The position numbers and the translations under genes are program-made. The notes beneath the pieces were generated by a model. The model saw nothing but the letters and a program-made list of their open reading frames with translations. It did no database searches and had not been told where the DNA came from. A DNA stretch of 40,109 bases from Alkalibacillus filiformis (GTDB lineage Bacteria; Bacillota; Bacilli; Bacillales; Alkalibacillaceae), in assembly GCF_030814115.1 (NCBI RefSeq), contig NZ_JAUSUP010000015.1:1-40109 (forward strand), given 5' to 3'. Numbering within the stretch: the first letter of the stretch is position 1; the number at the start of each line of letters is the position of its first letter. Positions 90 through 40,016 of this stretch are shown here, in pieces.

Positions 90-302
90 GTGAGCGCCGA
101 TAAAATATCGTGAGCGCTGATAAGTTAGCCTGAGCGCCGATAAATTGGCTTGAGCGCTGATAAAATGTGAGAGCTGAAAAGTTGCGAGCGCCAAAAAAGA
201 TACAACAAACGCCAAATAATTTTCATGAGCGCCAGAAAAGGTCACCCGAGCGCCAAATTAATCTCGCGAGTGCCAAATAAAATCCCACAAACGCCAAAAT
301 AA
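90..302 (+). repeat. Array 1: 20-21 bp tandem intergenic repeats (11 degenerate units)
   Basis: GAGCGC-type cores start at 92, 112, 132 and 152, a decayed one is at 171, and more follow at 186, 207, 227, 248, 268 and 289. Spacing is 20-21 bp except around the decayed unit. The first four units read TGAGCGCYGATAA, alternating C and T at the Y; later units read GAGCGCCAAAtAA. Stop codons and a period not divisible by three make it non-coding. It sits just beyond the ASCH-gene terminator. Array 2 carries the same units in the same order. Function unknown. Confidence 0.85.
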
Positions 303-305
303 ATC

Positions 306-333
306 TCCCCTCAGCTCACATCAGCTAAGGGGA
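306..333 (-). terminator. Intrinsic terminator of the ASCH-domain gene
   Basis: The stem pairs TCCCCT plus AGCT (306-316) with AGCT plus AGGGGA (323-333) around the loop CACATC, with one mismatch. Read on the minus strand it follows the ASCH stop codon by a few bases and ends in a T-rich stretch (GATTTATTTT). Confidence 0.75.
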
Positions 334-338
334 TTATT

Positions 339-806
339 TTACTCTTTATATAGTAATTCAAACTGCTCGCAGACAACGGGTAAGTCGTCTTCAAATTCTT
401 CGTTAATCGTTTCTAACTCTTTTGTGAAAAAGTCAACGTGAGCATCATGCCAATATTCATAGCTTTTGTCACCTTCGCCTTCTTTTTCAGCGAATTCTTC
501 TGGTACGGCTAGGAAAGGAATGATATCTAAGTCTGTCGTGCGTGTGACAGCTTCAGGGTTACCGTTCCAGTCTGTAATCACGTTGAATTCACCTTCAGTT
601 GGAAGTGGTGCATCTTCTACTTCATACATTCTATATAATGAGCAAGTCGCTGTTTTATCGCCTGACTTAACTAAGTCTAACAGCTCACGCGCTTGGTCTT
701 CGTTTGAGCCAAATGCCCAACTAGTGTACGGCGTATTTTCATCCGCTAACTGTGGGTTCTCTTGAACAAATTTATGCCAAAAGTTTTTCACTAAATCTTC
801 ATTCAT
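339..806 (-). CDS. ASCH domain-containing protein
   Basis: The 155-residue protein is soluble, acidic and has no signal peptide. The block around residues 29-75 (SWAFGSNEDQARELLDLV, then SGDKTATCSL) and the later TDWNGNPEAVTRT and EFELLYKE stretches match the bacterial ASCH family of about 150 residues. ASCH domains have a PUA-like fold and are associated with RNA or modified nucleosides; some relatives act as nucleoside amidohydrolases or RNases, but this subfamily is uncharacterised. The ATG is preceded by GGAGG at normal spacing. It appears monocistronic, with its own terminator directly downstream. A precise substrate cannot be inferred. Confidence 0.8.
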   Translation of the reverse strand: MNEDLVKNFWHKFVQENPQLADENTPYTSWAFGSNEDQARELLDLVKSGDKTATCSLYRMYEVEDAPLPTEGEFNVITDWNGNPEAVTRTTDLDIIPFLAVPEEFAEKEGEGDKSYEYWHDAHVDFFTKELETINEEFEDDLPVVCEQFELLYKE

Positions 807-943
807 TTTAATACCTCCGAGTGTTCATGTATGATACGTTAATTATTAGCATAGCATGATTTTAGTATATTAACAGTATTTTGATTAAAGTTTAACTTTT
901 CTTAAAGATTTTTGCGAATTTCATGTTAAAAGGAGGAGAAACA

Positions 944-1324
944 TTGAACTATAGTAAAACGTTATTAAGGTTGTCTGCGATCTTTGCAGCTGTTGGTGCG
1001 TTTATCGGTTCGCATATGGCTGGTTCAGGCGGTTATGAATTTCAGACGCTTCACGCGCACATTTTATTAGTCGGTTGGTTAACGTTATTTGCGTGGGCAA
1101 TCTTTTACAAAGTATATGATCCATCTCCATCACTCTTAACGACATCTCATGTTTGGACAGGCATTATCGGTGCATTTGGCTTAACGATTGGTATGTGGCT
1201 TTATTACGTTCGCCCATTCCCGTTGCCAGATTTGTTTGTCACTTTATTCTTTGTGATCGGCGGGACGATCTTATTAATTAGTTTCTTCTTATTTGTCCTC
1301 GTAGCGTTTCGAAAAGTGGATTAA
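944..1324 (+). CDS. Small membrane protein resembling a fragment of cytochrome oxidase subunit I
   Basis: The protein has about 126 residues with four predicted membrane segments. I chose the TTG at 944 because AGGAGG lies at 931-936; the upstream in-frame ATG at 923 would place that ribosome binding site inside the gene. The second helix carries LHAHILLVGWLTLFAWAIFY, with an H-x-H motif like that of a family of short Bacillaceae proteins usually annotated as cytochrome-c-oxidase-like. These resemble the heme-ligand region of oxidase subunit I but are too short to be an oxidase. The role is unknown; heme or metal binding is only a guess. A GGGCTTGGTT hairpin follows the stop. Confidence 0.6.
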   Translation: MNYSKTLLRLSAIFAAVGAFIGSHMAGSGGYEFQTLHAHILLVGWLTLFAWAIFYKVYDPSPSLLTTSHVWTGIIGAFGLTIGMWLYYVRPFPLPDLFVTLFFVIGGTILLISFFLFVLVAFRKVD

Positions 1325-1333
1325 ACTCTTGTT

Positions 1334-1357
1334 GGGCTTGGTTGCGAAACCAAGCCC
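1334..1357 (+). terminator. Terminator after the small membrane protein gene
   Basis: GGGCTTGGTT (1334-1343) pairs perfectly with AACCAAGCCC (1348-1357). It lies 10 bp after the stop codon and is followed by a weak T-rich tail. Confidence 0.7.
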
Positions 1358-1517
1358 TTAGCTTTATATTACTAGAGTTGCCGATTCTTTCTATTATTTC
1401 AAGCTTAATCGGACTGCTTTTTACACATGAGATTGATTAACATTTATATGGTAAAATAAGTTAAAGAACGTTATTAAACTAATGTAAGCAGAAAAGTGAA
1501 TAATAAGGAGGTTGATC

Positions 1518-1889
1518 ATGAATTTCAAGTTATTTATTTCTTTTTTAGCTATTTTTTTATTAGTGGGTTGTATGAATAACGAATCTACATTCTCATATGA
1601 ATATGAACTAAATTCTATTGAAGAAGAAGATCACGATGAAGTTCAAAAGTGGATAAATAAACCAAACCAAACACCGACACGAACCTATCAAGTTAATGAT
1701 GAGATTAACAACCGCCACTATATTTATGGTCATTCCAAGACATACAGCGCAGTTGATGTAGAAGAAAATGATGGTACAATCACTTTAACTTTTTCAAATG
1801 AAAAACAAGCCACTTCAGAGCAAGATGCCCTTGTAAAAATAAAAATAAACCCTAAATCGATTGATTCAGTAGTTCTTAAAACTAAGTAA
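1518..1889 (+). CDS. Putative lipoprotein of unknown function
   Basis: The protein has about 123 residues. The ATG at 1518 follows AAGGAGG (1505-1511) with 6 bp spacing; an in-frame TTG at 1512 abuts that site and is unlikely. Residues 1-18 form a lipoprotein signal ending in the lipobox LVGC, so Cys18 would be lipidated and the rest exported to the outer face of the membrane. The mature part is charged and predicted mostly beta. I do not recognise the family. A second small membrane-protein gene follows with a 46-bp gap, so the two may be co-transcribed. Confidence 0.65.
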   Translation: MNFKLFISFLAIFLLVGCMNNESTFSYEYELNSIEEEDHDEVQKWINKPNQTPTRTYQVNDEINNRHYIYGHSKTYSAVDVEENDGTITLTFSNEKQATSEQDALVKIKINPKSIDSVVLKTK

Positions 1890-1935
1890 CGAATGTGCTA
1901 TGTTCAGTGTTTAGCAAATTAAGGAGGAGTAGTAC

Positions 1936-2205
1936 ATGGAAAATACACTCCAATACAAGATTTTGAAACCTTATATAAAGGTATTATTGTTAATCTTAAC
2001 AATTTTATCAACGTGTTTAGTCATTTGGGTAGGCTTTACTGGTAGAGAGTCTATATTACCGTTTTTATTAACTTTAACACTGTTTTTTTCTATAAGTAAT
2101 TTAATGCTTATTGATGAAAATCCGAATAGAAAGAAGTTTTATAGGGCTTTATTTTTTGTATTATGTTTGTCAGTTGTATTGGCATTTGCAAGCTTATTCG
2201 TTTGA
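1936..2205 (+). CDS. Small hydrophobic membrane protein (unknown)
   Basis: The 89-residue protein has about three hydrophobic segments (roughly residues 14-33, 40-57 and 68-88). A strong AAGGAGGAG lies upstream of the ATG. It resembles the many short Bacillus membrane proteins of unknown role (DUF3953-like at best). It probably forms a two-gene unit with the lipoprotein gene upstream. No catalytic motif is visible. Confidence 0.55.
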   Translation: MENTLQYKILKPYIKVLLLILTILSTCLVIWVGFTGRESILPFLLTLTLFFSISNLMLIDENPNRKKFYRALFFVLCLSVVLAFASLFV

Positions 2206-2243
2206 GTAAAATGACTTGTTCTTCTATTAATGAGGCGTTATTT

Positions 2244-2279
2244 AATGAGCATCAAATTGCATGCAATTCAACGCTCATT
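2244..2279. terminator. Bidirectional hairpin between convergent genes
   Basis: AATGAGC (2244-2250) pairs with GCTCATT (2273-2279), and an inner AATTGC/GCAATT extends the palindrome. A T-run follows on the plus strand. It lies between the small membrane-protein gene (+) and the rRNA methyltransferase gene (-). Confidence 0.6.
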
Positions 2280-2320
2280 TTATACTACAATTTTGTTGTT
2301 TGTGCTCCAAAACTGGTGCG

Positions 2321-3157
2321 TTACTTTTTCCCAACGAGTATTTCTAAGTCTAGCGTGATTGGTTCTACAAAATTAATGCTGCTTAAATCTATGCCTTGAG
2401 TCAATGGCGTCATTTGAATTAAATCGTGAAACTGACCTTCTGTTAATGTTACTTCGTCATACACGTTTTCGCGGTGTGTTAGATGAAAAAATTGCTTAAA
2501 ACGTGCCACCGTCTCTTCATTTGAATATCCTTCTTGATTAGTACCTGCAAAAATTTGCTCGCGTAATTCTTTTAAATAATTTGGACCAGGAACGACTTTT
2601 ATAACGATTCCACTATCTTTTATTAATCGGGTGAATTCTTGATAGTTTGATGGCGATAAAATGTTAATGATCGCATCGAACGCCTTGTCGGTAAAAGGTG
2701 TATTAGCCAAATCGCCGACGATCCATTGGGCATTTTCATAAGTTTTGGCGGCTGTTTGAATGCCTTCTTTGGCAATGTCTACTCCAACACCAAGTTGGTG
2801 ATCAACCGTATCTAGTATTTGAGCTAAGTGAGAGCCTTCTCCACATCCAGCATCTAATAAAAAATCTGTGTTTCTACTTTGCAATAATGATTCAATTTGT
2901 ATCATAAGTTGATTGTAGAAACCTGATTGAATCAATCGTTGGCGTGCTTCAAACAATGACTGGTCGTATTGGGTCTTCTTCGACTGTTGTACCATATTGA
3001 TATACCCTTGCTTAGCCAAGTCGAACATATGACGATTTTGGCAAGTGAGCTTTGAATCGTCTGCTGACATCGTTTCGTGGCAGACCGGGCATTGGAAGAG
3101 ATCAATATGTTTTTCGATCCGGTTCATCGCAAGCTCTTTTTTACTTAACTTCTTCAA
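2321..3157 (-). CDS. rlmA: RlmA-type 23S rRNA (guanine-N1)-methyltransferase
   Basis: The protein has about 278 residues from the TTG start at 3157, which has GGAG 8 bp upstream; a longer reading frame to 3217 would add a hydrophobic N-terminus atypical of the family. Residues near the N-terminus form a zinc knuckle (FQCPVC, then LTCQNRHMFD), followed by a class I SAM-dependent methyltransferase domain with motif I LLDAGCGEGS and motif IV region INILSPSN. RlmA enzymes methylate N1 of G745 or G748 in helix 35 of 23S rRNA; the G748 type gives resistance to mycinosyl macrolides. Which of the two bases is used cannot be told here. Confidence 0.8.
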   Translation of the reverse strand: MKKLSKKELAMNRIEKHIDLFQCPVCHETMSADDSKLTCQNRHMFDLAKQGYINMVQQSKKTQYDQSLFEARQRLIQSGFYNQLMIQIESLLQSRNTDFLLDAGCGEGSHLAQILDTVDHQLGVGVDIAKEGIQTAAKTYENAQWIVGDLANTPFTDKAFDAIINILSPSNYQEFTRLIKDSGIVIKVVPGPNYLKELREQIFAGTNQEGYSNEETVARFKQFFHLTHRENVYDEVTLTEGQFHDLIQMTPLTQGIDLSSINFVEPITLDLEILVGKK

Positions 3158-3331
3158 TTGTTTCACTCCAATAAAACATACTGCCAATAGAATAACGTGA
3201 AAGAGTATAAAAGTCACTTATGATTGTCATATTATTTAATCTTTAGAAATAGTATGTGAACCTATATAATGTTAATTAAACGAATTACCGTGTTAAAGTT
3301 TTATATTTTATCACGTTCGGGAGGATTTAAA

Positions 3332-4648
3332 ATGTCAGAGCAGATTAAGCAACAAGTAAAAGCGTTTTATGATCGGTTAATGAACGATTATGATGTTAAC
3401 AATAGTCATTCTGGTATTGATGGAGAACGTGTAGCTAAACGTTTAACCGCTTTAGCCGAGCTTGGCATGACAGAAGATGGGGGTTGTCGACGGGTCTCCT
3501 TTTCACAAGAAGAAAAGCGAGCGAAGGAGCTTGTGAAGCAGTGGATGGAAGAAGATGGCCTAGCAGTAACGGTTGATGGGGCTGGAAATGTTTTCGGTCG
3601 AGTAGAAGGAAAGGTCGACGGGCCAGTGGTTATGTCAGGTTCTCACTTAGATAGTGTGATGCACGGCGGACATTTTGACGGACCACTAGGTGTCATTAGC
3701 GCTTTAGAGGTGGCGTCAGCTTGGAGAGATACAGATGAAAAACCTCATATCCCTTATGAAGTCGTTGTGTTTACTGATGAAGAAGGGGCACGATTTAATG
3801 GTGGCCTTTTAGGTAGTCAATCTGTAGTAGGTGAGTTAGACCTTGAAGAAGAGAAAAAGCGTGTAGACTTTAATGGTACACCTTTTGAAGACGTGTTGGC
3901 TAATGTTGATTTAACACCAGAAGGCTTTATTGAAGCTAAGCGTGATCTATCTCAAGTTAAAGCGTTTGTCGAAGTGCACATTGAACAAGGAAAACAGTTA
4001 GAGAAGCGAAATCTACCAGTTGGCGTTGTAACAGGTATTGCTGGTCCTACATGGCTTAAAGTATCTTTTAAAGGTGTAGCTGGTCATGCGGGGAATACGC
4101 CAATGAATGACCGAACTGATGCGTTAGTTGCAGCAAGTGAATTTGTCACGAACGTAAAAGACTTCCCAGTGCAAGTGAGCGAGTCAGGGGTTGCAACAGT
4201 AGGGAAGTTAGAAGTCGAGCCTAATGGTGTTAACGTCATACCTGGTGAAGTAACGTTGACGGTCGATATTCGTGACATTAAAGAAGAATGGAAAAATGAG
4301 ATCACTAGTCGTATTAAAGAATATGCGAAAACTGTAAGTGAACAACATGGAACAGCTGTTGAGATAGAAGAGAATATGAATGTATCACCTGTTCAAGTAC
4401 CGGACAAAATGCAACAGCAGGCAGGTGAAGCCGTACAAGAAACACTCGGTTTAGAACCATTTTATTTACCGAGTGGAGCAGGACATGATGCAATGATTTT
4501 AGGGAGATATGTCCCAATGGCGATGTTGTTTACACAAAGTTTAGACGGTGTTAGCCATAACCCGAAAGAATGGTCTTCGTTAAATGATTGTGTGCAAACC
4601 ATCTACGTTCTGAAGCGGTTTGTTGAAAAGATTGGAGAAGAATCATAA
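3332..4648 (+). CDS. M20-family amidohydrolase (N-carbamoyl-L-amino acid hydrolase / allantoate amidohydrolase type)
   Basis: The protein has about 438 residues from the ATG at 3332, which has GGGAGGA just upstream; an in-frame ATG at 3269 lacks a ribosome binding site. Metal ligands of the bimetal M20 amidase subfamily are visible: GSHLDSV (His105), HFDGPLG (Asp116), FTDEEGARF (Glu150/151), EVHIEQG and the late GAGHDAM. A dimerisation domain lies between about residues 210 and 330. The family hydrolyses N-carbamoyl-amino acids, ureidoglycolate or allantoate with release of CO2 and ammonia. No purine or pyrimidine degradation genes are adjacent, so the substrate is undetermined. Confidence 0.85.
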   Translation: MSEQIKQQVKAFYDRLMNDYDVNNSHSGIDGERVAKRLTALAELGMTEDGGCRRVSFSQEEKRAKELVKQWMEEDGLAVTVDGAGNVFGRVEGKVDGPVVMSGSHLDSVMHGGHFDGPLGVISALEVASAWRDTDEKPHIPYEVVVFTDEEGARFNGGLLGSQSVVGELDLEEEKKRVDFNGTPFEDVLANVDLTPEGFIEAKRDLSQVKAFVEVHIEQGKQLEKRNLPVGVVTGIAGPTWLKVSFKGVAGHAGNTPMNDRTDALVAASEFVTNVKDFPVQVSESGVATVGKLEVEPNGVNVIPGEVTLTVDIRDIKEEWKNEITSRIKEYAKTVSEQHGTAVEIEENMNVSPVQVPDKMQQQAGEAVQETLGLEPFYLPSGAGHDAMILGRYVPMAMLFTQSLDGVSHNPKEWSSLNDCVQTIYVLKRFVEKIGEES

Positions 4649-4708
4649 GTGACTTGCTCCTTCATTATTTTGTAAAACTATATTGGTTAACGGATGTCTC
4701 TTAATCTG

Positions 4709-4737
4709 TTAAAATTAATACTTGTGCAAACTATAAT
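4709..4737 (+). promoter_or_regulatory. Promoter of queF
   Basis: A consensus -10 TATAAT lies at 4732-4737, with a weak -35 TTAAAA at 4709-4714 (17-bp spacer). The predicted start site at about 4744 coincides with the beginning of the riboswitch, so the leader would be only about 45 nt long. Confidence 0.55.
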
Positions 4738-4742
4738 AGAAT

Positions 4743-4780
4743 AGCAGTTCGCGAAATCCTGCTTAATCAAAACTAAGGAG
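4743..4780 (+). ncRNA. preQ1-I riboswitch (translational type)
   Basis: Stem P1 is AGCAG (4743-4747) with CTGCT (4759-4763). Its loop is TTCGCGAAATCC, followed by the A-rich tail TAATCAAAACTAAGG that closes the H-type pseudoknot. The tail contains the Shine-Dalgarno AAGGAG (4775-4780), so ligand binding would bury the ribosome binding site of queF. This matches the class I preQ1 aptamer layout known from Bacillus and Thermoanaerobacter; the short loop resembles the latter. No separate terminator is present, so control should be translational. Confidence 0.85.
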
Positions 4781-4791
4781 AGATGATTATT

Positions 4792-5199
4792 ATGTCAGAG
4801 AATTATTATTTACCAAGGTCAGGCCCAATGCCAAGACCTGATAGTGTTAAAGAGGGTCGTGAAATCCTTAAAGATGAAGCGTTTGTAGCGCCGAATGTAC
4901 AAACGATTACATTCAAGGCGTTAGAATTTACAGCAGTATGTCCCAAGACTGGTCAACCTGACTTCGGTCAAGTTGAAATCACATATACACCGAACGAAAA
5001 GTGTATTGAGTCAAAGTCACTTAAGTTCTATTTATGGTCTTATCGTGACGAAGGTGCTTACTGTGAATCGCTAGCAGCACAGATCGCTGATGACTTCGTT
5101 TATGCGATTGATCCTTTAAACGTTGAAGTGACAGTCTATCAGTCAGCTCGTGGTGGTATTGAGTTGACAACGAAAGCTGTGCGTAACCGTGACGAGTAA
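4792..5199 (+). CDS. queF: NADPH-dependent 7-cyano-7-deazaguanine reductase QueF
   Basis: The 135-residue protein is the size of short (unimodular) QueF. It reduces preQ0 to preQ1 in queuosine tRNA modification. The catalytic cysteine is Cys50 in FTAVCPKTGQPDFG, followed by the NADPH-binding region ESKSLKFYLWSYRDEG. The start is ambiguous: ATG 4783 lies only 2 bp after AAGGAG and ATG 4792 lies 11 bp after it; I prefer 4792 (MSENYYLPRSG). The gene is headed by a preQ1-I riboswitch, giving product feedback, and its last 11 bp overlap the following transporter gene, implying translational coupling. Confidence 0.93.
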   Translation: MSENYYLPRSGPMPRPDSVKEGREILKDEAFVAPNVQTITFKALEFTAVCPKTGQPDFGQVEITYTPNEKCIESKSLKFYLWSYRDEGAYCESLAAQIADDFVYAIDPLNVEVTVYQSARGGIELTTKAVRNRDE

Positions 5200-5839
5200 A
5201 GAACAAAAGCTCATATTTTTAAATGTGATCTTTGCGACATCACTCGTTATTGCTAACGTATTAGCTGGTAAACTAGTCGCATTTAGTGAAAACTTCGTTG
5301 TACCAGCTGCAGTTGTTGTCTATGCTGTGACATTCCTAATTACCGACATCGTTCACGAAGAGTATGGTAAGAAACAGGCTAAACAAACCATTATATTCGG
5401 TTTTGCTGCACAAATTTTCGCAAGTATTATGATTTATTTAGGGTATCTGTTACCAGTTGCCCCGTTTGCACAAGAATCACAAGCAGCATACGAAGAATTA
5501 CTTGGTCAAAATGCCCGTTTCGTATTAGCGTCAGCAGCAGCGTATTTAACATCACAGTTTGTTGACGTCTATATTTTCGCAGCTGTTAAAAAGATGACGA
5601 AAAATCGATTGAAGTGGTTGAGAAACAACTTAAGTACAGCAACTTCACAGTTTTTTGACACGTCGATCTTTATTACGATCGCGTTTATTGGTACAGTACC
5701 TAACATTTGGGTGATGATTGTTAGCCAATATGTTATCAAACTGGCCATTGCTGTAATCGATACACCGTTATTCTATTTATTTACGCGAAAACACAGACGA
5801 GAACAAGCACAACAAGAAGAACATCAACAGTCTGCCTAG
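5189..5839 (+). CDS. yhhQ: Queuosine precursor transporter (YhhQ/VUT family)
   Basis: The 216-residue protein has about six membrane helices. The stretches FATSLVIANVLAGKLV, YAVTFLITDIVHEEYGK and the late QYVIKLAIAVIDTPLFYL are typical of the VUT/YhhQ family, which imports queuosine precursors (preQ0, preQ1 or queuine). It starts with GTG inside the end of queF (11-bp overlap), so it shares the preQ1-controlled transcript. Synthesis and salvage of the same intermediate are thus regulated together. The C-terminus is a hydrophilic glutamine-rich tail. Confidence 0.88.
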   Translation: MTSKEQKLIFLNVIFATSLVIANVLAGKLVAFSENFVVPAAVVVYAVTFLITDIVHEEYGKKQAKQTIIFGFAAQIFASIMIYLGYLLPVAPFAQESQAAYEELLGQNARFVLASAAAYLTSQFVDVYIFAAVKKMTKNRLKWLRNNLSTATSQFFDTSIFITIAFIGTVPNIWVMIVSQYVIKLAIAVIDTPLFYLFTRKHRREQAQQEEHQQSA

Positions 5840-5862
5840 TCTTTCTAGGTAGGCTGTTTTTT
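5828..5862 (+). terminator. Terminator of the queF operon
   Basis: A 12-bp stem formed by CAGTCTGCCTAG (5828-5839) and CTAGGTAGGCTG (5845-5856) is followed by TTTTTT. The stop codon of the transporter gene lies inside the left arm. Confidence 0.9.
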
Positions 5863-5892
5863 GTAGTTAGGAGGAGGGCCGGGACTTTGAAA

Positions 5893-5931
5893 ACGAAAAA
5901 ACCGCCCAACTAGGGGGTTAGTTGGACGGTT
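5893..5931 (-). terminator. Terminator of the MFS transporter gene at 6057
   Basis: On the minus strand AACCGTCCAACT pairs with AGTTGGGCGGTT and is followed by TTTTTTCG. The gap to the MFS stop codon is about 125 bp. Confidence 0.85.
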
Positions 5932-6056
5932 ACGACGTTCTATATTCAATATTTAAGGGAAGGTTCACACAAGCAATCTCTTGCTTACAATCTAATCATA
6001 CTACTTACTACTAAAAATGTCTGTGAATGGACTGTGAATATTTGGTTAAGAAATTG

Positions 6057-7286: not shown

Positions 7287-7601
7287 TTACGTAATTAACT
7301 TCAATCCAATTGTAGCCGAGATAATGCAAAAAATAAACAATATTCTAAGTCTTGTAGCAGGTTCATTAAAAAAGACTATCCCCATAATCGCACTCCCTGC
7401 AGCACCAATTCCAGTCCAGATCGCATATGCGACACTCATTGTGATTTCATTCATGGAATACGAAAGCAACACAAAGCTAATCGAAAACATAATAATCATG
7501 AACGCTACAGACTTCCGATTTTTGTATTTATTGATAAAGTTAATGCCTAAAACACCAAGCATTTCAAACGATCCTGCTATGATTAAAGCTGTCCAATACA
7601 T
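7287..7601 (-). CDS. ykkD: SMR-family guanidinium exporter subunit (YkkD-like)
   Basis: The 104-residue protein has four membrane helices. Small multidrug resistance hallmarks are visible: the conserved Glu13 in the first helix (IAGSFEMLGV), then AYAIWTGIGAAGSAIMGIVFFNEPAT. Its ATG overlaps the stop of the partner gene as TAATG. Paired SMR genes under a guanidine-I riboswitch encode a heterodimeric guanidinium/proton antiporter, as for B. subtilis YkkCD. The riboswitch upstream of the pair makes this assignment much firmer than homology to multidrug EmrE would. Confidence 0.9.
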   Translation of the reverse strand: MYWTALIIAGSFEMLGVLGINFINKYKNRKSVAFMIIMFSISFVLLSYSMNEITMSVAYAIWTGIGAAGSAIMGIVFFNEPATRLRILFIFCIISATIGLKLIT

Positions 7602-7930
7602 TAAGCATCACTTCCTTCTTCTGTTACGTACTTAAGTCCAATAATTCCGAGTAAAAGAAGCGAAATAAGCACGACTTTTAAGACCATAAAAGGCTCGTTA
7701 AAAAAGACTATGTCAACAACGACCGTTCCAGTTGTTCCAAGTCCAGCAAATACAGCATAAACCGTTCCTACTGGTAACTTTTGTGCTGCTAGTACTAAGA
7801 AGAAGAAACTTAAAAAGATGGCGACGACTGTACCGGCCCATGTCATCCAATTATAGGCATGGCTCAGGCCAACGACCCAAAACACTTCAAAGAAAGCCCC
7901 AAGAAACACTTTAAACCAATCAGAATTCAT
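7601..7930 (-). CDS. ykkC: SMR-family guanidinium exporter subunit (YkkC-like)
   Basis: The protein has about 109 residues when begun at the ATG at 7930 (MNSDWFKVFLGAFFEV), which has GGAGG 8 bp upstream; the longer in-frame start at 7984 would lie inside the riboswitch terminator. Four helices, Glu14 (GAFFEVFWV) and AVFAGLGTTGTVVVDIVFFNEP match the longer partner of the paired SMR exporters. Its start lies about 30 bp after the riboswitch terminator. It probably works only as a heterodimer with the overlapping YkkD-like gene. Confidence 0.9.
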   Translation of the reverse strand: MNSDWFKVFLGAFFEVFWVVGLSHAYNWMTWAGTVVAIFLSFFFLVLAAQKLPVGTVYAVFAGLGTTGTVVVDIVFFNEPFMVLKVVLISLLLLGIIGLKYVTEEGSDA

Positions 7931-7957
7931 ATGACGAACCTCCGAAGTTAAACCAAT

Positions 7958-8086
7958 ATAAAAGCCCAGAAGATGAATGAACATCTCCCGGGCTTTTATC
8001 CCTCCGTGTCACAGCATTTGCTATGTGTTTTCTCTCGGACCTGACCAACAGTTGTTGCGGAACCCTAGAAAACTAAAGGTGTGTGT
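7958..8086 (-). ncRNA. Guanidine-I (ykkC-yxkD) riboswitch with terminator
   Basis: Minus-strand hallmarks appear in order: CTAGGGTTCCG, TGGTCAGGTCCGAGAG, ACACGGAGGGATAAAAG, then CCCGGGAGA. The last part forms a transcription terminator, AAAAGCCC...GGGCTTTT (7959-7998), with a T-rich tail before the ykkC ribosome binding site. These are the conserved blocks of the ykkC class that binds guanidinium and relieves termination. It controls the ykkC-ykkD pair and possibly the MFS gene beyond. Confidence 0.95.
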
Positions 8087-8263: not shown

Positions 8264-9061
8264 ATGAATCAACTGCGTCAGTGGAGTTCGCAAATAGTTG
8301 AACATAGAGCCTTTCAACCGACTATTATAACGTTGATTGTCATTAATGCGATCATCGTCGGTTTAGAAAGTTACCGTGGTTTATATGATGCATACGGTGA
8401 TTGGTTTATTAGGATCGATACAATAATTCTAACGATTTTTGCGTTAGAGATTGTTATAAAGTTAATAGCAGCTAGGCCAACGACCAACTTCTTTAAAGAT
8501 GGTTGGAACGTTTTTGACTTTTTAATTGTAGCAAGTAGCTTTATTTTTATGGGTTCACCTTTTGTTACGGTACTACGTATTTTACGTGTCATTCGTGTAT
8601 TCCGTACGATTTCCATGATTCCATCGCTTAAGAAAATTGTTAACGCGTTAATTATGACACTGCCATCGCTAGGGACGATCTTAATTTTATTAAGTATTAT
8701 GTTTTACGTCTTTAGTGTTATGGGGACGTTCTTATTTAGAGATGTCGCACCAGAGTATTTTGGTAACCTACAATTAACATTGTTAAGTTTATTCCAAATT
8801 ATAACGCTCGAATCTTGGGCGAGTAATATTATGCGACCGATTCAAGACGAGTTCTGGTGGTCGTGGATTTATTTTGTCACGTTTATTTTAGCAGGTGTAT
8901 TTATTGTGCTGAACTTATTCGTCGGTGTCATCGTGAACAACTTTGAGAAGATTGAAAAGATGGAGAATGATGAACTGCCTGAAGGTGACGATCTTCAAGA
9001 TGAAGTGTATTTATTAAGGCAAGAAATTAAAGAGTTGAAAGATGCAGTTAAAGAGAAGTAA
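8264..9061 (+). CDS. Voltage-gated sodium channel, NaChBac/NavBac family
   Basis: The 265-residue protein has a single six-helix domain. S4 carries four arginines at three-residue spacing (Arg105, 108, 111, 114 in VLRILRVIRVFR). The pore loop has the selectivity filter TLESWAS (181-187), identical to that of B. halodurans NaChBac. S6 (about 205-228) is followed by an acidic neck and a C-terminal coiled coil (about 243-263) of the type that holds the tetramer together. In alkaliphiles these channels admit Na+ to support pH homeostasis and Na+-driven motility. GGGGGAG precedes the ATG, and a strong terminator follows. Confidence 0.95.
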   Translation: MNQLRQWSSQIVEHRAFQPTIITLIVINAIIVGLESYRGLYDAYGDWFIRIDTIILTIFALEIVIKLIAARPTTNFFKDGWNVFDFLIVASSFIFMGSPFVTVLRILRVIRVFRTISMIPSLKKIVNALIMTLPSLGTILILLSIMFYVFSVMGTFLFRDVAPEYFGNLQLTLLSLFQIITLESWASNIMRPIQDEFWWSWIYFVTFILAGVFIVLNLFVGVIVNNFEKIEKMENDELPEGDDLQDEVYLLRQEIKELKDAVKEK

Positions 9062-9066: not shown

Positions 9067-9098
9067 TCGCCGGATTGAGTTGCAATCCGGCGAATTTT
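9067..9098 (+). terminator. Terminator of the sodium channel gene
   Basis: TCGCCGGATTG (9067-9077) pairs with CAATCCGGCGA (9083-9093), followed by ATTTTT. Its 3' arm plus T-tract (TCCGGCGAATTTTT) closely resembles the unit of the array that begins about 60 bp later. Confidence 0.92.
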
Positions 9099-9150
9099 TA
9101 GTGTGAACGTGCGGGCAGTTCTTCGGTCGATTAGGTGGTAAAATATGTAT

Positions 9151-9290
9151 TATCAGCGATTTTTAAATTTTTCCGGCGAAATTTTTGATATTCCGGCGAA
9201 AATCTCATTTTTCCGGCGAACGTCAGGCATAATTAGGCGAAAATCTCTAAAATTAAGCGAACGCCTGAAAAATCAAGCGTTCGCCTAATT
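9151..9290. repeat. Array 3: exact 20-bp-period repeats, different core from arrays 1 and 2
   Basis: GCGA-type cores sit at exact 20-bp steps: CAGCGAT near 9155, CGGCGAA at 9174, 9194 and 9214, AGGCGAA near 9235, AAGCGAA near 9255 and AAGCGTT near 9275. Units read TTCCGGCGAAAATCTCATTT with A/T-rich tails. The first intact units copy the arm of the preceding terminator. The last two units are inverted halves forming a hairpin that abuts the stop codon of the coat gene. Non-coding. Confidence 0.85.
9256..9285 (-). terminator. Terminator-like hairpin of the coat protein gene, built from array units
   Basis: On the minus strand GGCGAACGC and GCGTTCGCT form a stem around a loop of about 12 nt, followed by TAATTTT. 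The two arms are adjacent 20-bp units of array 3 in inverted form, so the terminator and the repeat array are the same DNA. Confidence 0.6.
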
Positions 9291-9291
9291 G

Positions 9292-9912
9292 TTAATGTTG
9301 CTGTTGTTGCTGAGTCACTGGTGCGTAGCTATTTAATAGCTGAGTCATCGTTTGATCGTCAAACTGCGGCACTTGGTAATAGCTCTTATCGTTTTGGTAT
9401 AAGAAAATTTCGTAAGCCATTTCAGAGAAGTTGGCTACGCTATCTTGTAGAACACGACGCATAACAGGGTTTGTTGCTTCTAAAGCAGCGGTTGTCGCCC
9501 CTGTTGCACAAGCTTTTAAATGACCTAGCATGAAGCTTGAATAACATTGGTCATTTAATTGCTGAGGGTTTTGTTCTGGCTGTTTCGGCTGGCTCGGTTG
9601 CATACCATAAGTGACGTCGTTTGAGATCTCCATGTTGTATAACGTTGTTGGTTGAGTTGGTTTTTGACCTGATTGATATGCATCAACCATTGTGTTATAC
9701 GTTTGGCTTAAATAGTTATATTGGTTTGTTAAAATCCCTTGTAATTGCTGACATTGAATATTTTGTTCATACATTTTATAGTGCTCCATCGCACCAATTA
9801 CAGTTGAGATTGCTTCGTGAGCGTCAAAAATCGCATGAGCACCATGGCTTTTATCTTTCGGTAATGATTCAGATTGTTTCATTTGGCTGTTTGGGTTTTG
9901 TTGTTGTTGCAT
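9292..9912 (-). CDS. CotF-domain spore coat protein
   Basis: The 206-residue protein is rich in glutamine and asparagine. Coat F domain features are seen in two halves: an N-terminal helical segment (HAIFDAHEAISTVIGAMEHYKMYEQ) and a C-terminal segment (YSSFMLGHLKACATGATTAALEA...RRVLQDSVANFSEMAYEIFLYQND...YYQVPQFDDQT). A Q/P-rich linker separates them (about residues 84-116), and poly-glutamine runs cap both ends. CotF proteins belong to the spore coat. The gene supports a sporulating host. AAGGAGG precedes the ATG. Expression from a mother-cell promoter is expected but not identified. Confidence 0.85.
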   Translation of the reverse strand: MQQQQNPNSQMKQSESLPKDKSHGAHAIFDAHEAISTVIGAMEHYKMYEQNIQCQQLQGILTNQYNYLSQTYNTMVDAYQSGQKPTQPTTLYNMEISNDVTYGMQPSQPKQPEQNPQQLNDQCYSSFMLGHLKACATGATTAALEATNPVMRRVLQDSVANFSEMAYEIFLYQNDKSYYQVPQFDDQTMTQLLNSYAPVTQQQQQH

Positions 9913-19622: not shown

Positions 19623-19654
19623 AACAGCTTGCCATTATAGTATGGCAAGCTGTT
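19623..19654 (-). terminator. Terminator of cysK, beyond repeat array 2
   Basis: AACAGCTTGCCA (19623-19634) pairs perfectly with TGGCAAGCTGTT (19643-19654). On the minus strand it is followed by TTTTAGCTTTTTT. Because the array lies between the cysK stop and this hairpin, the array is transcribed in the cysK 3' untranslated region. Confidence 0.85.
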
Positions 19655-19683
19655 AGGGGATTAATGCTGATTACTTTTATTCG

Positions 19684-19822
19684 TTTTTGGCGCTTGAGTG
19701 GGATTACTTGGCGTTCATGAGAATTTATTGGCGCTCAAGCAAAAATATCAGCGTTCACGATAAATTATCGGCGCTCACGCGAATTTATCAGCGTTCACGT
19801 GAAATTATCAGCGCTCAATTTA
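19684..19822 (-). repeat. Array 2: 20-bp tandem repeats in the cysK 3' region (7 units)
   Basis: Plus-strand GCGYTCA cores start at 19711, 19731, 19751, 19771, 19791 and 19811, exactly 20 bp apart, with a degenerate one at 19690. On the minus strand units read TGAGCGCYGATAAATT and alternate GAGCGC with GAACGC, giving a 40-bp dimer. From the cysK end outward, units change from GCYGATAA to GCCAA type and end in AATCCCAC, as in array 1. The cysK stop codon lies within the first unit. Confidence 0.88.
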
Positions 19823-33780: not shown

Positions 33781-33781
33781 T

Positions 33782-34675: not shown

Positions 34676-34825
34676 TCGATTTCCCCCTTTACTTCTCTAA
34701 AGCATGAATAACGTTTTTAAAATTTTACGACACCCGAAAGGTTTTTGCAATATGAAGTTAGAAACTTTTGAGTTGTTGTTCACTGTTATGTTAGATAAAC
34801 TAAAATTATAAGGAGGCCTTTAACT

Positions 34826-35116
34826 ATGGAAATACACGTAACAGAGCAAGCAGTAGACTGGTTTTTTGATGAAATGGACCTAGAGACAGGAGATGTGGTG
34901 AATTTCTTCCCTAAGTATGGAGGCACTTGTTCATTTCAAAAGGGCTTCTCGATTGGAATGGCAATCGGTAGCACAGCAGAGCCGGAGGTTGAAACGGAGA
35001 AAAAAGGGCTTAGCTTTCAAATTGATGAAAAAGACGTATGGTTCTTTGATGGAAAAGATTTATATATAGGCCTTAAAGACGGAGAAGTAGAATATTCAGA
35101 CGGACCAATTGAGTGA
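34826..35116 (+). CDS. HesB-like (YneR family) protein
   Basis: The 96-residue protein has an A-type iron-sulfur carrier fold, with MEIHVTEQAVDWFFDEMDL at the start and KYGGTCSFQKGFSIG in the middle. True IscA/SufA carriers have three cysteines, two near the C-terminus; here only one cysteine is present, so cluster binding of the usual type is unlikely. YneR-type proteins are uncharacterised. AAGGAGG precedes the ATG. The following unknown gene begins 14 bp later and is probably co-transcribed. Confidence 0.8.
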   Translation: MEIHVTEQAVDWFFDEMDLETGDVVNFFPKYGGTCSFQKGFSIGMAIGSTAEPEVETEKKGLSFQIDEKDVWFFDGKDLYIGLKDGEVEYSDGPIE

Positions 35117-35130
35117 AGAGGGGATTACGA

Positions 35131-35574
35131 ATGGGATGGACGAGAGAGGAAGCATTTGATTTTTTAAAAACAGTTTATACAGATGATGTCATGCAGCAAG
35201 AAAAACGGCGTGTTTTCAAACAGGTGAACCGTCAGTTGTATGAACGTCTTGATGACTTAGCTATTAATAACGCGTTATCCGAACAAGTCGAAAAGCAGTT
35301 AAAGCTCTTTAAAGACTTTACATTTATGCCTGGCGACAACATCTTTCAATCGATGCGCTACTTATTTTTATTAGCGCGAGGTGAGAAAGAAATAGATCGA
35401 CTAACGACGAGAAAACATTTAGACCGTGTTTATAACTCGTTATTTAAAGCAGCTGGCATGCAAAACCCGATTATTCCGGATCATTTTTGGGAAACGCCAA
35501 TTGGCATTGCCTGCCGTATTGCAGAAGACGGTGTTGAAGCGGTTTATCCAGTATTAGATGAAATGGTTGATTAA
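35131..35574 (+). CDS. Conserved-looking hypothetical protein, helical
   Basis: The 147-residue protein starts at the ATG at 35131, with GAGGGG upstream; a GTG at 35113 overlapping the previous gene is possible but less likely. It is predicted mostly helical, with no signal or membrane segment. Visible stretches are TREEAFDFLKTVYTDD, KDFTFMPGDNIFQSMRYLFLL and HFWETPIGIACRIAEDG. I do not recognise the family. Its composition matches its neighbours, so it looks like a resident gene. Confidence 0.6.
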   Translation: MGWTREEAFDFLKTVYTDDVMQQEKRRVFKQVNRQLYERLDDLAINNALSEQVEKQLKLFKDFTFMPGDNIFQSMRYLFLLARGEKEIDRLTTRKHLDRVYNSLFKAAGMQNPIIPDHFWETPIGIACRIAEDGVEAVYPVLDEMVD

Positions 35575-35605
35575 CACTTCCTTTATGAGGGAGTGTTTTA
35601 TTTTT
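35573..35605 (+). terminator. Terminator after the hypothetical gene
   Basis: AACACTTCC (35573-35581) pairs with GGGAGTGTT (35589-35597) including one G-T pair, followed by TTATTTTT. It overlaps the stop codon. Confidence 0.85.
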
Positions 35606-35710
35606 ATAAGGTGTTTTGATATAAATCGAAACAGTGTATTGATTAAAATAGAAAATAGTTGTAAACTTTCTTATAACAGGACATATAATGATAATCGAAA
35701 GGGTGTTTAG

Positions 35711-36718
35711 ATGGATGTTAAATATGATGTCGATAAGCAAATAATGGCTGATTTTATTGCTTTTGCATTTCGGGTTGCCAATTTAGGAAAAGGGGAGGAA
35801 GAAGAGAAATACAAAGCATTAATTCGAGAAAGTGAAGGGGAAAAGTGGATCGAGTCAATTCATCATAAATTATCGACTGACGAACTGAAAGAACTACAAG
35901 TATTTTTCCAAAAAGATAGTCATATCGCTATTTCGCTTATGCCGTATTGGTATAGTCAAAGTGCGCTTACTTCCATCGAGGCATTACTCGATTCAATACG
36001 TGCAGTAGATGAAACGCAGCTAGTTGAGTGGATGGTCAATACGAGCTTTGTAGATGATTCAGTTAAACAATTACCAGTAGAGAAAAGAATAAAGTCTTTA
36101 CCCATTCCAGAAGAAGAAAAGTGGAAGTTAATTTATTTCATTCAACAACCTAATGAAATAAAAGACCGATTATGTCAATTGTTACAACACCTCTATGATC
36201 AGCACTATGCCAATTTTGAATCATTAGTGTCGACTAAAATAAAAGAAAAAGTTGAACATTTTAACAATCAAAAGTACAACGAGTTTATTAAAGAAATGGC
36301 GTCGCAATATACGAATTGGGATGGAAATAAAAAGCTGGTTGTTATTCCTTCTTATTCGATGAGTGTTGGTTTTATAAGTTTTGATGAAGCAGATTTTAGC
36401 TTACTAGTTGTTGGTATAGAGAGGTTTGATCTTAGTCAAAAAATGCGTGATGAAAAAGAAGTATTAGAGCTCCTGAAAATCTTAACAGATGAGCGTCGGT
36501 TTAATATGTTAAGGCTTTTAAAGCAACGTGCGCATTATGGTTATGAAATAGCGCAAGAACTAGGTGTATCAAATTCAACGGTTTCACACCATTTAGCAAT
36601 ACTACTCAACCACGGTTTTGTTCAATCAAAACGAGACGAAAATAAAGTTTATTACGCAATTAACCAAGATGAAGTGAAATCGGTTATTAAAGAGTTAGAA
36701 GAGTTGTTTTTAACTTAA
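35711..36718 (+). CDS. Transcriptional regulator with C-terminal ArsR-type winged helix
   Basis: The 335-residue protein has a long helical N-terminal region (about 1-245) of unknown fold, then an ArsR-type DNA-binding domain (about 250-330): LTDERRFNMLRLLKQRAHYG, AQELGVSNSTVSHHLAILLN, GFVQSKRDENKVYYAI. The usual ArsR metal-binding cysteines are absent. The N-terminal part probably senses a ligand. It is followed after 15 bp by an MFS exporter gene, so it likely controls that pump and itself. The ribosome binding site is AAAGGGTG. Confidence 0.82.
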   Translation: MDVKYDVDKQIMADFIAFAFRVANLGKGEEEEKYKALIRESEGEKWIESIHHKLSTDELKELQVFFQKDSHIAISLMPYWYSQSALTSIEALLDSIRAVDETQLVEWMVNTSFVDDSVKQLPVEKRIKSLPIPEEEKWKLIYFIQQPNEIKDRLCQLLQHLYDQHYANFESLVSTKIKEKVEHFNNQKYNEFIKEMASQYTNWDGNKKLVVIPSYSMSVGFISFDEADFSLLVVGIERFDLSQKMRDEKEVLELLKILTDERRFNMLRLLKQRAHYGYEIAQELGVSNSTVSHHLAILLNHGFVQSKRDENKVYYAINQDEVKSVIKELEELFLT

Positions 36719-36733
36719 GAGAGGATGTAAGTC

Positions 36734-37972
36734 GTGACCAATAACACTGGGGAAAGTCGTTTATCGTTGTATCGGAATCGATCGTTTGTGTTGTACTTTT
36801 TCACTTTTTTGGCCTCAAGTTTAAGTGTTGCGTTCTTTTTATTTACGGTTAATTGGTATGTCGTTGATTACTTAAGGTTAGAAGCGATGCTAGGGTTTGT
36901 GTTTGTCGCAAGTTCTATTCCCAGGCTTTTGTTTATGTTAATCGGTGGTGCAATTGCTGATCGTGTCAATAAAGCGTCGATCATGTTGCTATCTGATTTC
37001 ACAAAGGCTGTTTTATTAATACTTGTTATCTGCCTGCTTGTTTTTGATTTAGTTTCAATATGGGTATTAGTAGGTTTAGCGTTTTTGTTTGGTCTTCTAG
37101 ATGCATTCTTTTGGCCAGCGAGTTCTTCGCTCTTTCCAAAATTAGTAGAAAGAGAGCAGCTAACTCGAGCAAACTCAATTGTTCACACGACACAGCGTTT
37201 TTCAGTTATTGTGGGTCCATTAATAGCTGGATTAATTATTGGGTTTGGTAGTTATGAGTTGATGTTTGGTCTTGTTAGTTTAATGCTTATGTTGGCTGCT
37301 GTAGTCGATTTATATTTAAGGAGAAGGGTTGGTTTGGACGAAGAAGAGAATGAAACACATCCTTCTGTTTGGCGATCGATAATGGATGGACTTCGCTATG
37401 TAAAGCAATCTCCCTTTTTATTAACTTTAATGTTAACTTCTGTCTCACTCAATTTATTTTTAAGTGGACCGTTGCAAATGGGGTTACCAATTTTCGCACG
37501 AAATGTGATTGGTGGCGGTGAGTTCACTTATAGTTTATTAAGTGGGGTATTAGGTGTCGGGATGTTAATAGGAGCGGTGATCGTTGGGGTTATTAATATA
37601 AATAGGCGGCGCGGACTTGTTTCACTTGTAAGTATCGTTGCACTTGGGGTATTTATGGTCATCTTTAGTTTAACAGGTGAATTATGGCTTAGCTTATTAG
37701 TCATTAGCTTAGTTGGTTTAACATTGTCTATCATAGATGTGCCAATACTCTCAGCTATTCAAGCGAACACGGATGAAGACTATATTGGAAGAATGATGAG
37801 TCTAATTTCTTTCGCATCTATGGGATTACTTCCTGTATCTTTTTTATTAACTTCACTATTTATTTCGTTAGGGTTTTCAATTGATCAAATTATTTTTGTT
37901 GCGTCATGCTGTTTATTAACGGTGGGGTTAATCGTCGTCACTTTTGCAAAATCGATCAGATATGTTGATTAA
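36734..37972 (+). CDS. MFS exporter of the EntS/MFS_3 type
   Basis: The 412-residue protein has twelve helices. It opens with SLYRNRSFVLYFFTFLASSLS, as in the MFS_3 group, and carries motif A IGGAIADRVNKASIMLLSD. Relatives export siderophores or macrolides. A central cytosolic loop (about residues 195-222) contains many acidic residues. The start is GTG with GAGAGG upstream. Its pairing with the ArsR-type gene suggests ligand-induced efflux; the substrate is unknown. Confidence 0.82.
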   Translation: MTNNTGESRLSLYRNRSFVLYFFTFLASSLSVAFFLFTVNWYVVDYLRLEAMLGFVFVASSIPRLLFMLIGGAIADRVNKASIMLLSDFTKAVLLILVICLLVFDLVSIWVLVGLAFLFGLLDAFFWPASSSLFPKLVEREQLTRANSIVHTTQRFSVIVGPLIAGLIIGFGSYELMFGLVSLMLMLAAVVDLYLRRRVGLDEEENETHPSVWRSIMDGLRYVKQSPFLLTLMLTSVSLNLFLSGPLQMGLPIFARNVIGGGEFTYSLLSGVLGVGMLIGAVIVGVININRRRGLVSLVSIVALGVFMVIFSLTGELWLSLLVISLVGLTLSIIDVPILSAIQANTDEDYIGRMMSLISFASMGLLPVSFLLTSLFISLGFSIDQIIFVASCCLLTVGLIVVTFAKSIRYVD

Positions 37973-38065
37973 TTTAGATACTTTCGTTAAAAACTATACA
38001 GTATAGCAGAACTAATATATAATAACAAAGGCAGGAAATTTTAGTTATAGAAATGGAGCGTTTTT

Positions 38066-39895
38066 ATGCAAGAGTACAAAGATATTCGTAATATCGCCAT
38101 TATTGCGCACGTTGACCATGGTAAGACAACGTTAGTAGACCAAATGTTACACTATTCTGGGACGTTTCGCGATAATGAAAACGTTGATGATCGTGCGATG
38201 GATACGGATGATTTAGAGAAAGAGCGCGGGATTACGATCCTTGCGAAAAATACAGCTATAAATTATGGTGATGCACGAATTAACATTTTAGATACGCCAG
38301 GCCACGCAGATTTTGGTGGCGAAGTAGAACGTATTATGAAAATGGTTGATGGTGTATTATTAGTCGTAGACGCATATGAAGGTTGTATGCCACAGACTCG
38401 TTTCGTGTTAAAGAAAGCATTAGAACAAAACTTAAAGCCAATGGTTGTTTTAAATAAAATTGATCGTCCGAATGCTCGTCCTGAAGAGGTTGTTGATGAA
38501 GTATTAGATCTATTTATCGAACTTGGGGCTGATGATGAGCAGTTAGAATTCCCAGTAGCCTATGCTTCAGCATTACAAGGAACATCAGGTTATGAAGCGG
38601 AAGATCAAAACGAAACGATGGATCCAATTTTCGAGAAAATTCTAGAGCATATTCCAGCACCGCAAAAACTTGTCGATGACCCATTACAATTCCAAGTCAC
38701 TTTACTTGATTACAACGATTACGTTGGTCGTATTGGTGTCGGTCGTGTATATCGCGGTAAAATGAAAGTCGGCGATCAAGTAGCTTTAATGAAGAAAGAT
38801 GGATCAGCTAAAAACCATCGTATTACAAAGTTATTCGGTTTTATCGGCTTAAAACGTGTCGAAATCGAAGAAGCTGAAGCGGGTGATATCGTTGCCGTTT
38901 CAGGTATGGAAGATTTAAACGTTGGTGAGACAGTGTGTGATGTTAATCATCATGATCCTCTTCCAATTCCGAGAATCGATGAGCCAACATTACAGATGAG
39001 GTTCGTTGTTAATAACAGTCCGTTTGCTGGTAAAGAAGGGGACTACATTACAGCGAGAAAAATTGAAGAGCGTCTATTAACTCAACTTGAAACAGATGTG
39101 AGTTTACGTGTTGAAGAAACTGAAACACCTGATGCATGGATCGTATCGGGTCGTGGTGAACTGCACTTATCAATTCTAATTGAAAATATGCGTCGTGAAG
39201 GATATGAGCTACAAATATCTAAACCTCAAGTAATTATTCAAGAAATTGATGGCGTGAAGTGTGAGCCGTATGAGCGTGTTCAAATTGATGTTCCAGAAGA
39301 TTACACAGGTCCTGTCATGGAGTCTTTAGGAGCACGCAAAGGTGAAATGCTCGATATGATTAACCACGGAAACGGCCAAGTGAGACTAGAATTCAAAGTA
39401 CCATCTCGTGGTCTAATTGGTTATTCAACCGAGTTTATGTCTCAAACACGCGGTTATGGAATTTTAAACCACTCATTTGATGCTTACGAGGCTGTTGCTC
39501 AAGGTTCAGTTGGTGGACGTCGTCAAGGTGTCTTAGTATCACAAGAAAAAGGTAAAGCAACGCCATATAGTATTATGGCACTTGAAGATCGTGGTGTTAT
39601 TTTCGTTGAACCTGGTACGGAAGTGTATGAAGGAATGATCGTCGGTGAGCATAATCGTGATAACGACTTAACAGTTAATATTACGAAAGAAAAAGCTTTA
39701 ACAAACGTTCGTTCAGCAACGAAAGATAATACCGTGACATTAAAAGGTACGCGTAAATTAACATTAGAAGAAGCGATTGAGTATTTAGATGATGATGAGT
39801 ATTGTGAAGTAACGCCTGAGTCAATTCGTTTGCGTAAAAAGATCTTAAACAAGAGTGAACGTGAACGCTCACAGAAAAAAACGAAGAACTTATAA
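38066..39895 (+). CDS. typA: Ribosome-associated GTPase TypA/BipA
   Basis: The 609-residue protein is of standard length. G1 is AHVDHGKT (14-21), G2 includes EKERGITI, G3 is DTPGHADF and G4 is NKID. Domain II and the EF-G-like domains III and V follow ([20 protein letters not shown], then [17 protein letters not shown]), plus the BipA-specific C-terminal domain ([16 protein letters not shown]). It binds the ribosome at the EF-G site and aids 50S assembly and stress growth. The ATG follows GGAG. A strong terminator lies directly downstream. Confidence 0.97.
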
Positions 39896-39900
39896 TGTTG

Positions 39901-39936
39901 AGAGCTATGAGGGTGAATGTCCTCATAGCTCTTTTT
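39901..39936 (+). terminator. Terminator of typA
   Basis: AGAGCTATGAGG (39901-39912) pairs perfectly with CCTCATAGCTCT (39921-39932), followed by TTTT. Array 4 begins 5 bp later. Confidence 0.95.
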
Positions 39937-39940
39937 ATGC

Positions 39941-40016
39941 TAGATGCTCATAAAGTGGTTCAAGATGCTCAAAGTAGAAGTCTAGATGCTCATAAAGTGG
40001 TTCAAGATGCTCAAAG
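39941..40016. repeat. Array 4: four 20-21 bp units in two 41-bp dimers
   Basis: AGATGCTCA starts at 39942, 39963, 39983 and 40004 (steps 21, 20, 21). The 35-bp block 39941-39975 is repeated without change at 39982-40016, a 41-bp period. The core differs from the other arrays but the monomer and dimer lengths are the same. Non-coding, and directly behind the typA terminator. Confidence 0.88.

Follow-up and report, generated by a model that had tools for sequence, protein, structure and literature searches.

The genome of Alkalibacillus filiformis carries many intergenic tandem arrays built to one design. A core of ~9–13 bp is repeated head to tail, and between the cores lies a filler of ~7–11 bp with nearly free sequence and nearly fixed length, so that successive cores stand about two helical turns apart on the same face of the DNA. 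The arrays follow either a stop codon or a terminator, and they frequently occupy the space between convergent genes. Judging from sequence, we regard it as about an even chance that they act at the level of DNA, as rows of sites bound by protein along one face of the helix; the copied unit is a dimer of 41 bp.

Repeat tracts of the window

The window, i.e., the whole 40,109-bp stretch that was analyzed, is one contig of a 2.7-Mb draft genome; its CysK is 99% identical to CysK of two Alkalibacillus haloalkaliphilus strains. The four repeat tracts reported by the first-pass annotation were all recovered (Table 1). Tandem Repeats Finder assigned periods of 20/40 (85–166) and 41 (184–307) to tract 1, 20 (9167–9220) to tract 2, 20/40 (19710–19818) to tract 3 and 21 (39942–40013) to tract 4, while in an autocorrelation scan of the whole window the 15 best windows all fell inside these tracts, at lags of 20, 40, 41 or 42. 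The four tracts indeed hold three cores, as tracts 1 and 3 represent one family, A, on opposite strands, with the consensus GAGCGCYGATAAA. Tract 2 lies between convergent genes. A reading of the TAG at 85–87 as a gene stop was rejected, since it belongs to the insertion-sequence end.

Table 1. Features of the window linked to the repeat tracts.
Feature	Position	Strand	Remarks
IS right end	1–90	+	multi-copy insertion sequence (IS) that interrupts the tract 1 array (family A); 4-bp duplication TGAG in flanks
Tract 1	91–308	+	family A; type-1 units (GCYGATAA) from 91, type-2 units (GCCAAATAA) from ~186
Terminator-like hairpin	306–333		at end of tract 1
Terminator-like hairpin	9067–9093		after the gene at 8264–9061 (+)
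Tract 2	9144–9291	-	family C, core TTTCGCCNNATTAT on minus strand; begins at stop of the gene at 9292–9912 (-)
Terminator	19623–19654	-	after the cysK 3' array
Tract 3	19676–19816	-	family A, 7 units; begins 3 nt past cysK stop, ends before cysK terminator
Terminator-like hairpin with T run	39902–39937	+	after typA; read from sequence
Tract 4	39942–40016	+	family D (AGATGCTCATAAAG); directly past typA terminator; related arrays at the same place in genomes G002 and G003

Abundance in the genome

The repeats are real and extend far beyond the window. We sampled 21 stretches of the genome (440,109 bp including the window), in which 256 regions are intergenic. Of these, 9 had a score at lag 20 and 7 at lag 41, whereas Markov simulation gave 0.3 and 0, respectively; over all lags, 46 scored against 2.3. 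Twelve arrays of the two-turn class (20, 21 or 41 bp) add up to 1,908 bp, which corresponds to 0.43% of the 440-kb sample and 4.1% of its intergenic DNA. Within ORFs (1,558 pieces of 200 bp), scores were found at multiples of 3 alone and never at 20 or 41, by which coding repeats were rejected as the source. Chance origin was likewise rejected, on the basis of the simulated sequences and of the distant-taxon control described below.

The genome has five or more different cores. Besides A, C and D of the window, we distinguished family B (TATTCGGTAATAA) and a family with TCCGACAATTAT. Family A alone was parsed at 42 arrays, dispersed over dozens of chromosomal loci. Several contigs stop within arrays of identical units; arrays break short-read assemblies, so that their true length and number are underestimated.

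Period classes and cores in related bacteria

Family A itself is narrowly distributed. A pattern of paired units (up to 3 mismatches) matched this genome and two of five genus mates, while the 54 other genomes examined from the family and order gave no match. When 2 mismatches at most were allowed, the family A pattern also failed to match any of 118 further genomes from the phylum. Phages and plasmids gave no match to the one query array or one pattern used.

The period, in turn, recurs in relatives. At 80 named loci of Bacillaceae (569 regions), lags 21 and 52 scored 9 times each against 0 in simulated sequence; G001, G004 and G002 showed lags of 20/21/41/42, with 52 prevailing in G001, and G005 contributed two arrays. 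The same lags (21, 42 and 52) were found in samples of the family (17 stretches, 169 regions) and of the order (13 stretches, 158 regions). The excess of 20–21 bp periodicity in intergenic DNA that the first-pass annotation predicted is hence present over simulated sequence in the samples of both this genome and its relatives. The relatives carry a second period class, of 51–53 bp. A de-duplicated pool of the named loci, the other stretches and this genome, which includes at least one probable coding repeat (L132), holds 76 arrays in 1,390 regions: 41 two-turn arrays (20–21 bp and multiples), 23 five-turn arrays (51–53 bp) and 12 others with lags such as 36, 38, 43 and 87. Two-turn or five-turn periods therefore account for 64 of the 76 arrays in the Bacillaceae and order samples. 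Among 14 stretches (141 regions) from distant genomes of the class and phylum, we detected 7 arrays, none of which has a two- or five-turn period.

Most lineages possess differing cores, and the claim of one unit length without one sequence holds in that periods cluster at two and five turns across genera. Yet, the cores are not unrelated in an absolute sense, as the sub-motifs GAGCGC, TTTCGC and TTCGGTAA recur: GAGCGC in an array of G006 (L159), TTTCGC in Piscibacillus, Rossellomorea and A. almallahensis, and TTCGGTAA in L180. A family of A. almallahensis/A. salilacus, ATTGTTAAACAAT, is palindromic.

Unit structure and copying

The family A unit consists of a 13-bp core and a 7–8-bp filler. 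Between adjacent units (20 arrays, 141 units), identity was 0.74–0.94 at most core columns and 0.28–0.46 in the filler, for arrays chosen by core score and with the anchor columns at 1.0 by construction; the weaker core columns are the Y column (0.61) and position 2 (0.54). Filler identity across arrays is similar, ~0.27–0.46. We observed the same contrast of core and filler in B, C and D, in one A. almallahensis family and in one G006 family, all of which were picked by lag or as gene-end matches and anchored on 2–4 bases. Freely varying columns exist within cores, e.g., column 5 of B, columns 5 and 7 of C and column 5 of D. An array of G013, with five noisy units, is too short for judging the contrast.

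Steps between family A units measure 20 (414 cases), 21 (241), 19 (16) or 22 bp (5), with a mean of 20.35. A step of 21 follows another 21 only 15 times against 73 expected, and 5 times against ~15 expected in the 26 arrays with diverged lag-2 filler. Filler identity is 0.33 at a distance of one unit, 0.49 at two and 0.33 at three; this peak marks a 41-bp dimer as the copied unit, from which the alternation of 20 and 21 may partly be inherited. The variance of summed steps is 0.35, 0.69, 1.09 and 1.55 at 2, 4, 6 and 8 steps (0.58 to 2.31 for independent steps), and as it rises with distance, the phase is not strictly locked over long range. Of the two causes proposed earlier for the constant length, helical spacing thus gains from the rarity of 21 after 21 and loses from the loose long-range phase, while a fixed copying step is borne out in part, as the 41-bp dimer. 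Plain decaying duplication as the whole story was rejected, since adjacent filler is near random, cores are kept and units two steps apart are most alike.

Family A units also follow an order within arrays. Where an array has two or more units of both types (44 arrays), the type-1 units (GCYGATAAA) come before the type-2 units (GCCAAATAA) in all but one, L045, in which the order is reversed; in 36 of the other 43, the two types do not mix at all.

Evolution of arrays at gene ends

For 31 of the 42 family A arrays of this genome, we found an array beside matching flanks at the G002 or G003 loci examined; the remaining 11 allowed no judgement. At one and the same locus, close species differ in unit number and filler, as after cysK, where three close genomes with kept flanks have 7, 4 and 13 units. 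In 74 aligned orthologous units from 17 pairs, a set chosen for filler divergence of 30% or less, 66 of 962 core sites (6.9%) and 86 of 518 filler sites (16.6%) differ; in all 223 aligned units, poor alignments included, 12% of core and 35% of filler sites do.

The main rival of the binding row is a selfish or mutational satellite, in which slippage, repair or some enzyme multiplies steps of ~41 or 52 bp and the core is needed for copying and not by the cell; the arrays would persist at gene ends as places where insertions are nearly harmless. The dimeric copied unit, the variable unit number at cysK, the contigs ending in identical units and the permissiveness of 3' regions are in keeping with such a process. 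Plain slippage, however, would treat core and filler the same, which does not agree with near-random adjacent filler beside kept cores. Neither is the avoidance of other period lengths (12 of 76 arrays) explained, and a search for PF01797 indicates that a Y1/REP-type transposase is absent from the genome. We consider a selfish process that requires the core possible, though rather doubtful.

The genes glpD, typA and lipA have arrays at their 3' ends in this genome. Outside the haloalkaliphilus group, arrays with other cores were found at the 3' ends of glpD (6 of 14 loci), typA (2 of 14) and lipA (2 of 11). This gives 10 of 39 loci of relatives, not all independent, as G004 and G005 share one glpD family; with four second copies, which have no array, the loci number 43. 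The baseline in relatives is 23 of 499 gene ends, or 7 of 113 where a terminator was detected. At 78 further cysK 3' ends outside the haloalkaliphilus group there was no recurrence, the only hits being one marginal two-turn match (L061) and four five-turn arrays (L127, L129, L137 and L138). Given the cysK result, recurrence at the same gene ends is not established, and the evidence for it across genera is suggestive.

Position relative to genes and terminators

With gene ends taken from a simple longest-ORF caller, 18 of the 41 two-turn arrays lie in convergent, 17 in tandem and 6 in divergent regions, against 284, 743 and 363 of the 1,390 background regions. They are over-represented between convergent genes and under-represented in divergent regions; thus, their frequencies upstream and downstream of genes are unequal in these samples. 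In tandem regions, 13 of 17 are closer to the upstream stop than to the downstream start. The assertion that arrays never adjoin a promoter survives as this bias and fails as a rule, given the 6 arrays in regions called divergent. For the 23 five-turn arrays (7 convergent, 10 tandem, 6 divergent), a preference for 3' positions is not evident.

A sense gene lies upstream of 58 of the 79 merged family A arrays in three genomes; of these 58 arrays, 22 begin within 15 nt of the gene's stop, 35 at 26–130 nt and one at 543. In tandem regions, family A is sense in 29 cases and antisense in 11, while family B occurs in both orientations. A crude search placed a terminator within 140 bp of 28 of the 79 arrays, a lower bound as it misses some plain terminators; a terminator lies between gene and array in 23 and downstream of the array in 8. 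The earlier statement that each tract adjoins a terminator is true of the four window tracts; for the class as a whole it is not established, the family A count of 28 being that lower bound.

The proximity to stop codons and the excess of sense arrays would fit an RNA-level 3' UTR element, i.e., a transcribed array that binds a protein or protects the message. Family A folds slightly better than shuffled sequence (mean z -1.6), which points the same way. Over the two-turn class, folding is mixed (mean z ~ -1, both signs, 13 of 41 arrays below -2), by which a common RNA structure was rejected, and an Rfam scan of the window matched none of the tracts, its only hit being a guanidine-I riboswitch elsewhere in the window. 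The arrays located past a terminator, together with the two orientations of family B, argue for DNA and not RNA. We therefore find an RNA-level element very improbable, and RNA is unlikely as the common agent. Hairpins are common among the five-turn arrays (z below -2 in 15 of 23), and as these arrays also lack a clear 3' bias, the two-turn and five-turn arrays may be separate things.

The enrichment between convergent genes could also be expected of landing sites for gyrase or another topoisomerase, a Bacillaceae counterpart of BIME-2 placed where convergent ends gather positive supercoils; BIME-2 is reported to bind gyrase in the accessible part of one account (PMC2817692). Yet, the enzyme is conserved, whereas the cores change within one genus, and we hold this reading to be improbable.

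An insertion sequence in the arrays

Of the insertion sequence whose right end opens the window, this genome contains 13 ends, 7 right and 6 left, each of them at a contig end; no right end was found in G002 or G003. All 13 ends adjoin array units, of three core families: 5 right and 5 left in family A (L301 with a single core on its side), one right in family B, and one right and one left in the TCCGAC family. Three left/right pairs share 4-bp duplications (TGAG, CGAG and TTGT), and two more were matched from the remaining flanks (GTGT and TCAC). The G002 arrays L211 and L220, orthologous to IS-bearing arrays, contain no IS end. For 7 of 7 insertions to fall in arrays, the probability is ~2e-10 under random insertion in intergenic DNA.

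The insertion sites lie at or just before a CG within the core. The element may recognize a short motif, the DNA shape or a bound protein, of which the short motif is the dull alternative. The assembly shows none of the element's interior, and an IS3 transposase profile gave only two sub-cut-off pieces, at C3. According to the available part of the source, IS1397 and others insert into REP elements (PMC1525189); here, by contrast, one element accepts differing cores.

A proposed role of the arrays

A row of proteins along one side of the DNA would need just such units, with filler free in sequence and nearly fixed in length, cores that are kept and a step of two turns. In the mechanism that we propose, one protein, or several, would bind the cores side by side as a row, and the binding row would keep the core under selection; at gene ends, the row may act as an architectural or transcription-insulating element, and the recognized word would change between lineages. 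For this reading speak the contrast of core and filler, the position bias, the order of blocks and the 13 of 13 IS ends. Against it stand the freely varying core columns, the loose long-range phase and cysK without recurrence, and, taken together, these sequence features leave the matter near balance. The arrays could also lie where they do through neutral tolerance at gene ends. No candidate binder gene was found beside three arrays in regions called divergent.

More tentatively, the arrays may belong to a satellite system of Bacillaceae, in which two- or five-turn arrays at gene ends have their own cores in each lineage, re-coded chromosome-wide by a co-evolving binder, and in which the IS targets any core. 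If so, a large bacterial group would mark its gene ends by phased binding arrays, with the spacing conserved and not the word. One physical rule would then cover STAR and other intergenic repeats of Gram-positive bacteria that still lack an explanation, and the old question of their role would become testable.

Comparison with known repeat systems

By their sequence organization, the arrays appear to be a variant of the repeats interspersed between genes, and their regularity at the level of the class is new to the literature searched; that literature, which covered few subscription papers, yielded no description of two-turn core/filler arrays in Bacillaceae. CRISPR loci have repeats and spacers each longer than ~20 bp and cas genes, and this identity was rejected on unit sizes (core ~13 bp, filler 7–8 bp). 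Minisatellites (VNTRs) resemble the arrays in their tandem units and in copy numbers that differ between strains. In a decaying minisatellite, differences spread evenly over the unit and neighbours are most alike; the arrays exhibit neither trait. Iterons, direct repeats of about two helical turns, share the unit length, and are confined to a single replication origin beside a rep gene. In contrast, the arrays are dispersed over dozens of chromosomal loci at gene ends, with only the core conserved.

The nearest known kinds are the BIME and STAR elements, STAR being the closer in type, and the arrays fully match the definition of neither. REP/BIME elements, as far as the accessible parts of the sources describe them, are palindromic, alternate in orientation within BIMEs and are associated with a Y1 (RAYT) transposase (PMC2817692, PMC1525189). 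Binding of gyrase or IHF is a further trait of REP/BIME elements. Like the arrays, they form many extragenic, often convergent copies and serve as targets of insertion sequences, IS1397 and others (PMC2817692, PMC1525189); the 13 IS ends in arrays correspond to this trait. The arrays differ in palindromy, with only the 6-bp AGCGCT in A and weak outer arms in B, and in their head-to-tail units. The Y1 transposase domain (PF01797) had no match in the 97.9%-complete draft and matched in 5 of 14 control genomes; its absence led us to reject a REP/RAYT identity.

STAR elements of Staphylococcus have, in the part of the report available, one 14-bp core, T(G/A/T)TGTTG(G/T)GGCCC(C/A), and units of ~50 nt (PMC3532100). 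The likeness lies in the short core, the distinct spacers, the many intergenic tandem loci, the species-differing locations and the variable copy number (same source, in part), and the 42 family A arrays are similarly interspersed with spacers that differ between loci. The array cores do not fit the STAR core, however, and the steps of family A are far from ~50 nt; here, many cores exist, and adjacent filler is near random. The five-turn arrays of the relatives (51–53 bp) are closer to STAR in length.

Insertions and Contig Ends within Arrays

We found at least seven insertions of one insertion sequence, every one of them located within an array, and the arrays hit belong to three core families. 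The target duplications are 4 bp; no transposase of this element was found in the assembly. Arrays of identical units also lie at contig termini, namely C16 and C23 of the source genome and C16, C21, C22 and C23 of its relative G002; as contigs stop within such arrays, drafts built from short reads make the arrays look shorter than they are.

Outlying Arrays and Relatives

Within family A, to which tracts 1 and 3 of the window belong, a single array (L045 of G002, 1283-1600) carries type-2 units ahead of type-1 units. Outside the genus, one lone family A core, GGCGCTGATAAA, is positioned directly 3' of the typA terminator (L265 of G011), a gene end which bears arrays elsewhere. In the window, the guanidine-I riboswitch is directly followed downstream by two short ORFs (7601-7984 and 7287-7601) on the same minus strand.

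Location of the features

Feature	Location	Strand or genome
Guanidine-I riboswitch	window 7983-8079	-
Insertion sequence ends	window 1-90; loci L298-L310	
Five-turn array	L143 17911-18436	G001
Five-turn array	L140 9415-9861	G001
Further five-turn arrays in relatives	L137, L138, L186, L177 and others	

The five-turn arrays of relatives (51-53 bp) frequently combine inverted arms with stable folds (z < -2 against shuffled sequence in 15 of 23), and may represent a second class or one resembling the STAR intergenic repeats of Staphylococcus.
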